This document shows positions 28,851-32,706 of a stretch of 41,950 nucleotides of DNA, piece after piece (positions within the stretch are counted from its first letter, which is position 1; each line of letters begins with the position of its first letter). The DNA comes from Lachnospiraceae bacterium (GTDB taxonomy: Bacteria > Bacillota > Clostridia > Lachnospirales > Lachnospiraceae): contig JAFXJR010000110.1 of the NCBI GenBank assembly GCA_017532145.1, positions 1 through 41,950 on the forward strand. The letters run 5' to 3'. A program made the position numbers and the translations under genes. A model generated the notes under the pieces. It worked only from the letters and a program-made list of their open reading frames with translations. It made no database searches and was not told where the DNA came from.

Positions 28851-29657
28851 TTAGGTATTTTGGGGCGTAAGCGTATAGATTTTATCCGCAATAGGTAAAA
28901 GAGAATAGATATGGGCATAGGTAGCAGGAGAAAGTCCTTCAATGTAATTCAGAGGGAAATTGCGGTCTATGCCATTTTTTTTCACAATATCTACAGCCTT
29001 ATTATAGGCAATAGCAGCTTCAGTTTCTTTGGTATACACTCCCACTACATAACTACTACGGATATGGAGGCGTACCTTATAAAGTGGTTGACTGCCATTT
29101 TTTACTGGAGTATGAGTAATTCCATAAAATCGGTTAATGATTTCAATATTTTCATAACGTAAATCCTGAGAGTCTCCATTGAGGAAACGATAATCCCGGT
29201 TCAAAACAGCATAGCTTCTAATCCCATAACGGTTAAGGATATTAAACTGCATCCCATAGTCATTAACAAACAGATGTCCACCCCGACGCATAATTTTTTT
29301 TGTCGAATAATAGAACAGGTCGTCGATATCAAACTTAAGAATATAGGAGGAATCCAGATAATATAAAAAATACTTATTTTTCAGATAAATAGGCATGGAA
29401 AAATAAAGACCATGGTCTCGAAAATTGATAAGAATAACCCATTTTAAAAAGGAGAGAGGAGACTGTGGGCTATATTCTGTCAGGGCAGTTAAACTGTTGA
29501 CCAGCTTTAATCCTTCCTGATAGGCCAGATGTGCTTGTTCAGCCTGATTATAGCTGCCCAGACTAATATGCCTTTCCCGAAAGGTAAGGGAGGCACGATA
29601 ATAGAGGGAGTTATCTTTTTTTCGGGCGGCATAGACACCGGGAAGTTTTTGAGTCAT
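28851..29657 (-). CDS. Protein with two AP2-like DNA-binding domains and an HNH-like centre
   Basis: The 268-residue protein begins with an AP2-type segment (GVYAARKKDNSLYYRASLTF..HISLGSYNQAEQAHLAY, about residues 7-50). A second AP2-like segment follows near 180-245 (YGITHTPVKNG..YKVRLHIRSSYVVGVY..EAAIAYNKAVDIV). Between them, NRYGIRSYAVLNRDYRFLNGDSQDLRYENIEIINR resembles the D-N/R-x-x-N portion of HNH-type homing endonucleases that often carry AP2 domains; metal-binding His residues are not clear. This suggests an ancient homing-nuclease relative reused as a DNA-binding protein. It is preceded by a 5' leader of about 270 nt with a structured RNA related to that of thrC. Confidence 0.6.
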   Translation of the reverse strand: MTQKLPGVYAARKKDNSLYYRASLTFRERHISLGSYNQAEQAHLAYQEGLKLVNSLTALTEYSPQSPLSFLKWVILINFRDHGLYFSMPIYLKNKYFLYYLDSSYILKFDIDDLFYYSTKKIMRRGGHLFVNDYGMQFNILNRYGIRSYAVLNRDYRFLNGDSQDLRYENIEIINRFYGITHTPVKNGSQPLYKVRLHIRSSYVVGVYTKETEAAIAYNKAVDIVKKNGIDRNFPLNYIEGLSPATYAHIYSLLPIADKIYTLTPQNT

Positions 29658-29689
29658 TACAGCATTACCTTTCTTTCTGATTTTAGTCC

Positions 29690-29836
29690 TAATACACCGA
29701 ATATTAATTCACTGTCCTTTTGGCTGGTCTGTACTTTTGATTTTCATAGCACAAATCAAAAAGCCTCAGCGTAGTACCCATAGTGCCACTACGCCGGCAT
29801 TTTTGCTATGCATATGGAAAATCATGCCTTAGCCAA
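29690..29836 (-). ncRNA. Structured leader RNA (copy A) of the AP2-like gene
   Basis: On the minus strand TTGGCT (29836-29831) pairs with AGCCAA (29725-29720) and closes the structure. Inside, GATTTT pairs with AAAATC, CATAGC with GCTATG, and GCGTAGT with ACTACGC. After the closing stem comes the conserved CAGTGAAT.AATATTCGGTG. The same order of motifs and helices, with compensatory changes, is found at 31003-31190 upstream of thrC. I do not recognise a known riboswitch class. Confidence 0.7.
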
Positions 29837-29937
29837 TGGAGCTGAAAGTGATTACCGCCTATAATGAAAACCATTTTATTTTCGCGGCAATGTACAAACT
29901 TTCTGAACATACATTTTCTAACAGTATATTTACCATG

Positions 29938-29966
29938 ATTATACCATCTTGGAAAAAAGAATACAA
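29938..29966 (-). promoter_or_regulatory. Promoter of the AP2-like gene leader
   Basis: On the minus strand TTGTAT (29966-29961), a 17-bp spacer and TATAAT (29943-29938) form a good sigma-A promoter. This implies a leader of about 270 nt before the start at 29657. Confidence 0.7.
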
Positions 29967-30033
29967 TTTTAGAAATATTTTGGACAGCTTCTGTATAAAA
30001 TATTAAAGAAGTATTACATTTGTATGACGGAGA

Positions 30034-30161
30034 GTAATTAGTCAGCAGATCAGCACACTTGCTGTGCTGACCATAGGAAAACGTAGTTGCAATGAGTAAA
30101 AATCACATCGCTATCCGTGATTTATATGAATTTTTGTAACTATGAGGGGACTGAATAGTTA
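30034..30161. repeat. Dispersed repeat R1, full copy (R1c)
   Basis: It has GTAATTAGTCAGCAG at the left and CTGAATAGTTAC at the right as inverted ends. Inside are CAGCACA-CTTGC-TGTGCTG (perfect 7-bp stem), GACCATAGGAAAACGTAGT and AAATCAC..GTGATTT. It lies 48 bp upstream of the SleB-like gene. Confidence 0.85.
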
Positions 30162-30209
30162 CGGCGGAGATTTTATTTCTGGAAAATAGTGAAGTAAAGA
30201 GGATGAAAG

Positions 30210-30836
30210 ATGTATAAGTATAAAAAAAGTATTACCATTCTGCTACTATGTAATATGGTGCTGGCTCTGTGCTGGTTTAATCTGAAGGGGCTGCAGTTTA
30301 ATCGGATTGCTTCCACACCTGCTTTTGAAATTCGTTTTATGGAAGATTGTGCCAGTCTGGATGCAGCTGATTTTGTAGGAATGGTAGTACAAGCCTCCTC
30401 TGGACAAAGAGTAGTGGATTATACTATGCTGGAGAGGGAGCCTGAGCATAAGTTGTCTGAGGAGGATTATGAGATACTTTTGCGGATTGTGGAGGCAGAG
30501 GCAGGCTGTGAAGATATTAAGGGAAAGATGCTGGTAGCCGGTGTAATTATGAATCGGGTAGAAAGCAGTTTGTTTCCTGATACTGTAAAAGAGGTAGTAT
30601 TTCAGAGAGAGAATGGAGTAGCTCAGTTTTCTCCCATCTCAGATGGACGTTACGAAACAGTAAGGGTAAGTGAGGAAACCAGAGAGGCAGTGAAAAGAGT
30701 TTTGTATGGAGAGGATATTACCAGAGGAGCACTCTATTTTGCAGCTAGAAAGTATGCAGATCCGGAAAGGATGAACTGGTTTGATAATAGCTTGACTCTT
30801 CTCTTTTCCTATGGAGGACATGAGTTTTTTTCATAA
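30210..30836 (+). CDS. SleB-type cell wall hydrolase (Hydrolase_2 family)
   Basis: The 208-residue protein has an N-terminal membrane helix or uncleaved signal (ITILLLCNMVLALCWF) and then a SleB-family domain from about residue 88: EDYEILLRIVEAEAG with the catalytic Glu, GKMLVAGVIMNRVES, VAQFSPI and GALYFAARK. SleB is a spore-cortex lytic transglycosylase, but many Clostridia carry several SleB-like proteins for general wall turnover, so the target is uncertain. It sits near the GH25-like protein. The AAAGAGG site precedes the ATG. R1c lies upstream and an inverted repeat downstream. Confidence 0.88.
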   Translation: MYKYKKSITILLLCNMVLALCWFNLKGLQFNRIASTPAFEIRFMEDCASLDAADFVGMVVQASSGQRVVDYTMLEREPEHKLSEEDYEILLRIVEAEAGCEDIKGKMLVAGVIMNRVESSLFPDTVKEVVFQRENGVAQFSPISDGRYETVRVSEETREAVKRVLYGEDITRGALYFAARKYADPERMNWFDNSLTLLFSYGGHEFFS

Positions 30837-30885
30837 GAAAGACAGGAAATTTTTTGGTGTCAAAACGGATATCACATTATCATCA

Positions 30886-30937
30886 CAAGGAGATCCCCCA
30901 CTTAGTACTTGGATAGTTGAAGTGGGGGATCTCCTTG
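30886..30937. repeat. 18-bp perfect inverted repeat (R3-related, copy e)
   Basis: CAAGGAGATCCCCCACTT pairs with AAGTGGGGGATCTCCTTG across a 16-nt loop. There is no T-tract, so it is not a standard terminator. Its right arm followed by ATTCAGTTAAA, read on minus, matches the R3 left end (TTTAACTGAATCAAGGAG..CACTTCAA). Confidence 0.75.
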
Positions 30938-30953
30938 ATTCAGTTAAATTTGC

Positions 30954-30982
30954 TTGTAGTACATAAAAAAATGTGATATAGT
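30954..30982 (+). promoter_or_regulatory. Promoter of the thrC leader
   Basis: TTGTAG (30954-30959), a 17-bp spacer and TATAGT (30977-30982). The predicted leader is about 230 nt long. Confidence 0.6.
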
Positions 30983-31002
30983 GAGTAAGTATAAGCTGTA
31001 CC

Positions 31003-31190
31003 ATAGAGCGAATATGTGGAGGAAGGATAAGCTAGTACATCGAATAATTAATCGCTGCTCTATTGACTGAGACGTGTTTTTCCACGTACATAGCAAAAAT
31101 ACAGGCATAGTAATACTGCAGTGAGGCTTTTCAAGCTGTGCTGGGGAAAGGATAGACCAGTCAAGCGTCAGTGAATAAATATTCGGTGTG
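31003..31190 (+). ncRNA. Structured leader RNA (copy B) of thrC
   Basis: A first helix ATAGAGC/GCTCTAT (31003-31063) abuts the closing stem TTGACTG/CAGTCAA (31063-31069 with 31158-31164). Inside are ACGTG/CACGT, TTTTTCC/GGGGAAA (31077-31083 with 31143-31149) and GGCTT/AAGCT. Motifs shared with copy A are CATAGCAAAAAT, GGC.TAGT, TGAGGCTTTT, AGACCAG.CAA and CAGTGAAT.AATATTCGGTG. There is no T-box TGG-ACC motif and no lysine, TPP or SAM riboswitch core that I can find. A role in sensing and thrC control is possible but unproven. Confidence 0.7.
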
Positions 31191-31219
31191 CTGGTGGCGA
31201 AAGTATGAGAGGTAGTAAA

Positions 31220-32706
31220 ATGGAAGTTTTATATAAGAGTACAAGAGACGATAAAATTCGAGTAACAGCATCAGAAGCAATTTTAAAGGGACTTTCTGAG
31301 GATGGTGGACTGTTTGTGCCTGACCGGATTCCTGCCATGGAGAAAAGCTTGCAGGAGTTGGCAGGGATGGACTATAAAGAAGTGGCCTATGAGGTGATGA
31401 AGCTATATTTCACAGATTTTACTCAGGAGGAATTAAAGGACTGTATTGACAGAGCTTATGATTCTAAATTTGATACGGAGGTAATAGCTCCTCTGGTGGA
31501 GGCAGATGGGGTATACTATTTGGAACTTTTCCATGGAGCTACGATTGCTTTTAAGGATATGGCATTATCCATTCTGCCCCATTTAATGACCACTTCTGCA
31601 AAAAAGAATCAGGTAAAGAATGAAATTGTCATTTTGACAGCTACCTCCGGTGATACAGGAAAGGCTGCTCTGGCCGGGTTTGCAGGAGTAGAGGGAACGA
31701 AGATTATCGTATTTTATCCCAAGAATGGAGTTAGTCCTATTCAGGAAAAGCAGATGATCACACAAAAGGGAGACAATACCTATGTGGTGGGTATCCATGG
31801 CAACTTTGATGATGCTCAGACGGGAGTGAAGCAGATATTTGCGGATAAGGCATTGGCAGAAAAAATGGAGGCAGCAGGTTATCAGTTTTCCTCTGCAAAT
31901 TCTATCAATATCGGACGTTTGGTTCCTCAGATTGTTTATTATGTTTATGCCTGTGCCAACTTGTTGAAAGAGGGAAGGCTTAAAGAGGGAAAGACCATTA
32001 ATGTAGTAGTTCCTACAGGAAATTTTGGAAATATTCTGGCGGCTTTTTATGCAAAAAATATGGGACTGCCCATTGGTAAGCTGATTTGTGCATCGAATGA
32101 AAACAAGGTGCTTTATGATTTTTTCAATACTGGTGTATACGATAAGAACCGAGAATTTGTATTGACCAGTTCTCCTTCCATGGACATTTTGATTTCCAGT
32201 AACCTGGAACGTCTGATTTACCGGATAGCAGGTGACGATGCCGCAAAGAATAGTGAGTTGATGAAGGCCTTAACCGGAGCGGGAAATATGAGATTACGGA
32301 AAAGATGAAGGAAAGCTTGAATGATTTTTATGGAGGCTATGGAACAGAGCAGGAGACAGCAGAGACTATTCGGACACTATATGAAAAGACCGGATATGTA
32401 ATAGATACTCATACTGCTGTAGCAGCCTGTGTCTACCACAAGTATATGAAAGAAACCTCAGATATGGCTTCTACAGTGATTGCTTCTACAGCCAGCCCAT
32501 TTAAGTTTACCAGAAGTGTGATGAAGGCTATTGATACAAAGTATGATAAGATGACGGATTTTGAGTTGGTTGACGAGTTGTCTTCTCTGGCCAATGTGGC
32601 GGTACCTGCTGCGATTGAAGAAATCAGAACGGCATCTGTGTTACATCATCATGTTTGTGATAAAACAGAAATGCAGAAGACGGTAGAGGAGTTCTTAGGC
32701 CTATGA
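31220..32706 (+). pseudogene. thrC: Threonine synthase ThrC, with a frameshift
   Basis: ThrC converts O-phosphohomoserine to threonine with PLP. Residues 1-355 read normally, with the PLP lysine in HGATIAFKDMAL (Lys112) and TATSGDTGKAALAGF. The frame then slips at about 32280-32287 (GCGGGAAATATG). The family sequence resumes as KYEITEKMKESLNDFYGGYG in the other frame and runs to 32706. A single base appears missing. Restored, it is about 495 residues, normal length. ATG 31220 has AGAGGTAG upstream; an in-frame ATG lies at 31205. It has a structured leader. A small membrane protein gene overlaps its stop by 4 bases (ATGA). Confidence 0.92.

Follow-up and report, generated by a model that had tools for sequence, protein, structure and literature searches.

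Two related stretches in a 41,950-nt window (the whole stretch of Lachnospiraceae DNA that was analysed) are, with a probability that we put at about 0.8, two decayed copies of a small mobile hairpin element, which belongs to an undescribed family and needs its fold for its spread. The preliminary description of this DNA had presented them as covarying leader RNAs and had considered either a class of regulators or a shared mobile leader. The latter reading is essentially right: a mobile element happens to lie in the 5' regions of two genes.

Copies in the window and in the host genome

The homology of the two stretches was confirmed by blastn (E = 8.1e-10 between the copy near thrC and the other copy) and by the alignment of their ordered motifs, and their extents were revised from 31003-31190 and 29836-29690 to 31036-31190 (+) and 29693-29854 (-). 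The copy in the 5' region of thrC is decayed and full length, and was matched with an E-value of 6e-6 by R2, a structural model built from 24 Lachnospiraceae-type elements from other genomes plus a different copy from the host. It begins with the left terminal inverted repeat (31036-31058, +), ends with the right one (31169-31190, +), and contains a degenerate hairpin tip (GGCATAGTAATACTGCAGTGAGG, 31104-31126, +) recognized from the sequence and the alignment; the target-site repeats flanking it are CTAG (31032-31035) on the left and CTGG (31191-31194) on the right. The second copy is located upstream of an ORF on the minus strand (28851-29657). Its left inverted repeat has diverged or been lost, the loop of its hairpin tip (29763-29796, -) is enlarged, and a target-like TTAG, read on the minus strand, adjoins its right end (29689-29692). 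R2 matched this copy at 29693-29863 (E 6.2e-7). Both copies are more stable than shuffled sequences (z -4.8 and -3.4).

The thrC gene (threonine synthase, 31220-32706, +) is present in two frames, comprising the ORFs 31205-32308 and 32305-32706; the split at 32305-32308 is either a frameshift or an assembly error, and the orthologue at locus L241 is a single 495-aa ORF. Upstream of thrC is a cell wall hydrolase gene (Pfam Hydrolase_2, 30210-30836, +). Each copy had previously been assigned its own promoter. The two sites quoted (29938-29966 and 30954-30982) are absent from the six promoter-like sites, whereas a thrC promoter is plausible, because a TATACTT or TATAATG box lies upstream of thrC in all 11 orthologues. 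The ORF at 28851-29657, labelled AP2-like in the same account, gave no hit to Pfam at 1e-3. Positions 30898-30949, directly upstream of thrC, contain another interspersed repeat, which forms a strong hairpin, and stretches 75-87% identical to it occur at nine places in eight other fetched host loci.

When the minus-strand copy was used as a blastn query against the host genome (2.6 Mb in 134 contigs, 87% complete), 41 rows were returned, which represent 40 distinct and dispersed places. The element is ~155 bp long and non-coding, has ~40 copies in the host, and aligns from end to end. R1, a sequence-only model made from 25 copies, gave 112 rows on the host genome at E <= 0.1, a number that includes opposite-strand echoes of the same places. 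The consensus ends are TACATCGAATAATTAATCACTGA and CAGTTAATTAATATTCGGTGTA, and both terminal inverted repeats were found within a 140-200 bp frame in 24 of the 40 copies. The flanks outside the ends are CTAG, CTTAG, CTAAG or CTGG. Identical 4-5-nt flanks, representing target duplications, were present in 12 of 23 copies compared with 5.1 expected, and when the right flanks were shuffled among copies, 1 of 10,000 permutations reached 12 (the 24th copy, C57_3908, whose end was misplaced by the matcher, was left out). Derived copies also exist: by eye, those of ~100 bp resemble deletions between two GCTGAGGC repeats, and those with fused ends resemble deletions at ATTAAT. A Clostridiales-1 RNA (RF01699) is located near one host copy (L042:1834-1998, -).

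Empty sites and evidence of insertion

Of 20 other genomes, 18 gave a match to thrC DNA; 12 of the 18 belong to the host's genus, and 11 of the corresponding 12 loci were fetched. The end of the hydrolase gene precedes thrC in nine of the 11 loci. R1 had no match in any of them at E <= 1, and R2 had none upstream of thrC, its single weak match (80 nt, E 0.0011) being downstream of the gene in L243. The closest orthologue (L241, 79% identical) reads gataag-CTGA-gaaagc before the ribosome-binding region, and the window reads gataag-CTAG-element-CTGG-tggcgaaag at that spot; L241 thus keeps a single 4-nt target. The empty thrC site was found in genome G008. In another orthologous locus (L247 of genome G005), a core-less inverted repeat of ~66 nt, whose arms contain AAATAACTT, is present between the thrC promoter and the start; it was matched by neither R1 nor R2, and may be the remains, or an independent insertion, of a related element.

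A second filled/empty pair was found in the genus of Blautia wexlerae. Locus L155 of this species reads GGTTG-CTAG-element-CTAG-AGTCAACG, and L294, from the same genus, reads GGTTG-CTGT-AGTCACCG, with a single 4-nt target and flanks that match on both sides; this reading of L294 is our own, as the alignment program split the four letters. A further locus, L295, gave no alignment with L155 at the insertion site. Two genomes of this genus contain further copies with 97-100% identity, so that the element has moved recently in them. Another dispersed repeat, found in many genomes of the genus, abuts the Blautia insertion site (L155:4315-4394; query 366-445). The element accordingly has several features of a MITE: it is short, non-coding, multi-copy and dispersed, its ends are inverted repeats, its flanks carry target duplications, and orthologous sites without it exist.

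Shared tip, covariation and strand bias

R1 also matched 10 of 40 other genomes; the relatives found there are divergent and differ in their ends, but are alike in the middle. Three of them, folded whole, each form one rod (z -9.5 to -14.7). A rod with the tip GGCGTAG...CTACGYYGAGG is common to the Lachnospiraceae relatives and to tip-sharing hairpins in Bacteroidales, Desulfobacterota, Nitrospira and Myxococcales. At least 112 stretches with this tip were retrieved by exact matching, compared with approximately one match expected by chance in 257 billion bases (our own calculation, assuming even base composition). The titles of the tip-bearing records name Lachnospiraceae, Blautia, Coprococcus, Eubacterium and Selenomonas, together with Bacteroidales, Phocaeicola, Parabacteroides, Prevotella, Desulfobacteraceae, Geobacter, Geothermobacter, Nitrospira, Myxococcales and an alphaproteobacterium. 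Among 398 genomes drawn from the host's phylum, which included four other members of the host's family, the strict pattern, which finds two of the host copies, matched in the host only, and a reversed control pattern was unmatched. Beside the tip, C-GNA on the left strand faces Y-GAGG on the right in 14 of 17 loci, the right side being fixed by the search pattern (the exceptions are L099, L102 and L113). Of 18 loci of other bacteria, R2 matched 15 at E <= 0.01 (12 over its full length) and left L124, L130 and L171 unmatched; the set had been picked by the tip, so that part of the score was selected. The element may descend from a common ancestor across phyla.

The 2.8-Mb Bacteroidales genome G042 contains 433 matches to one inverted-repeat end, and among the matches listed these ends are often paired 176-178 bp apart. 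Two queries against 72,556 plasmid records gave no match, and one query against phages matched two uncultured faecal contigs. Three short virome contigs (L209, MT837746 and MT838414) begin or end inside the element, and between the two copies on L209 are three large ORFs that we take to be serine recombinase-like. The element had no match in Rfam, either at the gathering score or at permissive E-values, in scans that also covered 10 and 8 loci of relatives. The tip string was absent from the literature searched, which mostly excluded subscription journals, and no account of the element was found there.

For the analysis of covariation between families, elements with identical flanking repeats and ends at least 11/16 alike were collected (44 in total, 27 after removal of near-duplicates); leaving out L205, L111 and L173, 24 of these and one host copy formed the 25-row alignment A4, in which 20 rows had been obtained via the exact tip pattern. 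In A4, 93.8% of the cells are paired (79.2% in shuffled alignments), and two-sided changes occur at 34 of 51 pairs (19.6 when shuffled) and in 179 cells (50.7 when shuffled). None of 500 shuffles reached these values. As A4 was partly chosen by tip and ends, a bias affects helices 1 and 5 but not helix 4, in which 20 of 28 pairs show two-sided changes. In contrast, the 25 host copies, placed on the fold of one copy, give counts slightly above those of shuffles: two-sided changes at 18 of 58 pairs versus 15.9 (reached by 115 of 500 shuffles) and in 41 cells versus 32.9 (10 of 500), and 85.4% paired cells versus 84.3% (3 of 500), the five measures being reached by 3, 115, 10, 172 and 5 of 500 shuffles, respectively. 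Mean column identity is 74% in both alignments. Inserted copies decay nearly one by one, and spreading lines keep the fold. Because covariation is strong between families and near chance in the host, the fold probably serves the movement of the element rather than its resident copies.

These results also bear on the paired changes between the two window copies that had been cited as evidence of covariation, which turn out to be weak evidence. The pair at which TTGGCT and TTGACTG differ is G.U in 17 of the 25 host copies, G-C in seven and A-U in one, so each state seen in the window is one step from G.U. The helix containing it has no pair with a two-sided change in the 25 host copies.

The cells of A4 comprise 1029 Watson-Crick pairs, 157 G.U, 21 A.C and 58 other mismatches, and the host copies contain 213 G.U versus 88 A.C. 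The core-carrying strand folds better than the opposite strand in all 27 Lachnospiraceae-type elements and in all 17 stretches from other bacteria (by title, one is from Selenomonas and 16 are from other phyla). The difference in folding energy and the G.U bias are not independent, because the opposite strand reads each G.U as A.C. Since a double-stranded palindrome would give no G.U bias, a particular single strand, of RNA or DNA, is likely to be the working form. At 6 of the 51 positions, G.U outnumbers every other pair, which leans towards RNA; with DNA energies, one element was also more stable on the core-carrying strand.

Mode of movement, related systems and significance

In the reading that we prefer, master copies would fold, as RNA or single-stranded DNA, and an enzyme supplied in trans would recognize the conserved tip and the internal loops and would insert a new copy at CTAG-like sites. 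The proposal that the stretches are a class of cis-regulatory RNAs, i.e. riboswitch-like leaders that control thrC, the second ORF and additional genes, draws on the position of both window copies just upstream of genes, on their better-than-shuffled folds, and on a slight excess in the host of copies with a codirectional downstream gene (19 of 29). However, only 30 of 75 placements outside the host are followed by a codirectional gene, and the dispersed copies share no neighbour family: 144 of 191 distinct neighbour ORF references were scanned, and the commonest Pfam family occurred four times in these 144 proteins. The element is upstream of none of the 11 thrC orthologues, covariation in the host is near chance, and a comparison of both window stretches with Rfam matched no family. 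A regulatory RNA is therefore not supported, and we consider this proposal highly improbable. Of 30 strong host copies, 29 lie clear of any ORF of at least 90 aa, and 18 of 120 tip matches in other genomes are inside mechanically called ORFs. REPINs are imperfect palindromes whose mobility is attributed to a lone transposase (RAYT) acting in trans, and a REPIN-like element, moved by a Y1 transposase that recognizes a folded single DNA strand, would account for the strand-specific, imperfect hairpin. Among relatives, 9 of the 11 that R1 matches have Y1_Tnp, compared with 15 of the 30 that it does not match; 8 of 10 carriers in other groups also have it. However, this gene is not consistently present, being absent from the draft genomes of the carriers G001, G017 (16 matches), G042 (433 repeat ends) and G051, and exact 4-5-nt target duplications occur here. 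We therefore regard a REPIN-like element as doubtful.

The inverted repeats and the 4-5-nt duplications are also what a MITE of an ordinary DDE-type IS would show, with a partner that was lost or missed and a fold that is a by-product of its long inverted repeats. IS elements usually mobilize MITEs in trans (PMC10969869). A DDE partner, whether or not the fold is needed, is a tentative possibility, and the insertion part of this explanation is common to the one that we prefer. The by-product part leaves the 7:1 bias of G.U over A.C unexplained, as well as the tip and internal loop common to families with different ends. As for the partner, the four draft genomes checked (G000, G005, G017 and G041) yielded no autonomous element with these ends. 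In G000, there were 50 end matches, with one facing pair 0.6-4 kb apart among the matches listed (C57:8179 and 11483), both ends of which belong to core-bearing copies; 20 further ends that were read had no second end at IS distance. In G017, 14 of 14 ends are at R1 matches, and in G041, none of the 54 ends, all accounted for, is in a facing pair at IS distance. Two of the 17 ends in G005 lack both a core and a partner (L288 and L291), and no transposase was seen by eye in their ORFs. A degenerate end pattern had 86 matches in the fetched loci, 81 of them beside a core, and no transposase was present among the 25 listed of 231 neighbour Pfam families. Besides the missing partner, what speaks against our preferred explanation is that a like tip with wholly different ends across phyla is unusual for ordinary MITEs, that codirectional downstream genes are in slight excess in the host, that some tip matches are inside ORFs, and that the covariation counts in the host slightly exceed those of shuffles. 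A more far-reaching possibility is a cross-phylum mobile class with a strand-specific rod, which would move via RNA, in a SINE-like manner, or via single-stranded DNA by a dedicated enzyme, and in which G.U pairs would allow full folding of the RNA yet break the DNA palindrome; we consider this unlikely.

Several described elements are comparable with the decayed hairpin element of the window. The bcr1 repeat of the Bacillus cereus group is likewise short, multi-copy (tens of mostly chromosomal copies) and structurally conserved, with mobile features (PMC6542083, PMC2267715). Compared by description rather than by sequence, bcr1 is reported to occur only in B. cereus s.l. and to be linked to a TTTAT motif, whereas the element described here has CTAG-type targets and a GGCGTAG..CTACG tip and occurs in Lachnospiraceae and other phyla. 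The Chunjie MITE of Geobacter uraniireducens, which has 38 mostly intergenic copies of 178-235 bp with inverted and direct repeats (PMC10969869), is similar in size, copy number, repeats and intergenic sites, again by description and not by sequence. A Geobacter record (L167) holds the tip. For BrickBuilt and MITE239/464/700 of Porphyromonas gingivalis, one filled/empty site pair has been shown, and their inverted repeats match resident IS5-family elements (PMC4596501); in contrast, none of the four genomes checked yielded an IS that matches the present element. We class the latter as an element of the MITE kind, set apart by its conserved one-strand fold, its cross-phylum tip and its missing partner.

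The window copies before thrC and the 28851-29657 ORF are probably fossils, and any effect on those genes would be incidental. Structured 5' regions that contain the element can be mistaken for riboswitches. The contrast between covariation that is strong across families and close to chance in resident copies provides a simple test that distinguishes a fold kept for spreading from a fold kept for the host, and the enzyme that moves the element is a concrete target.
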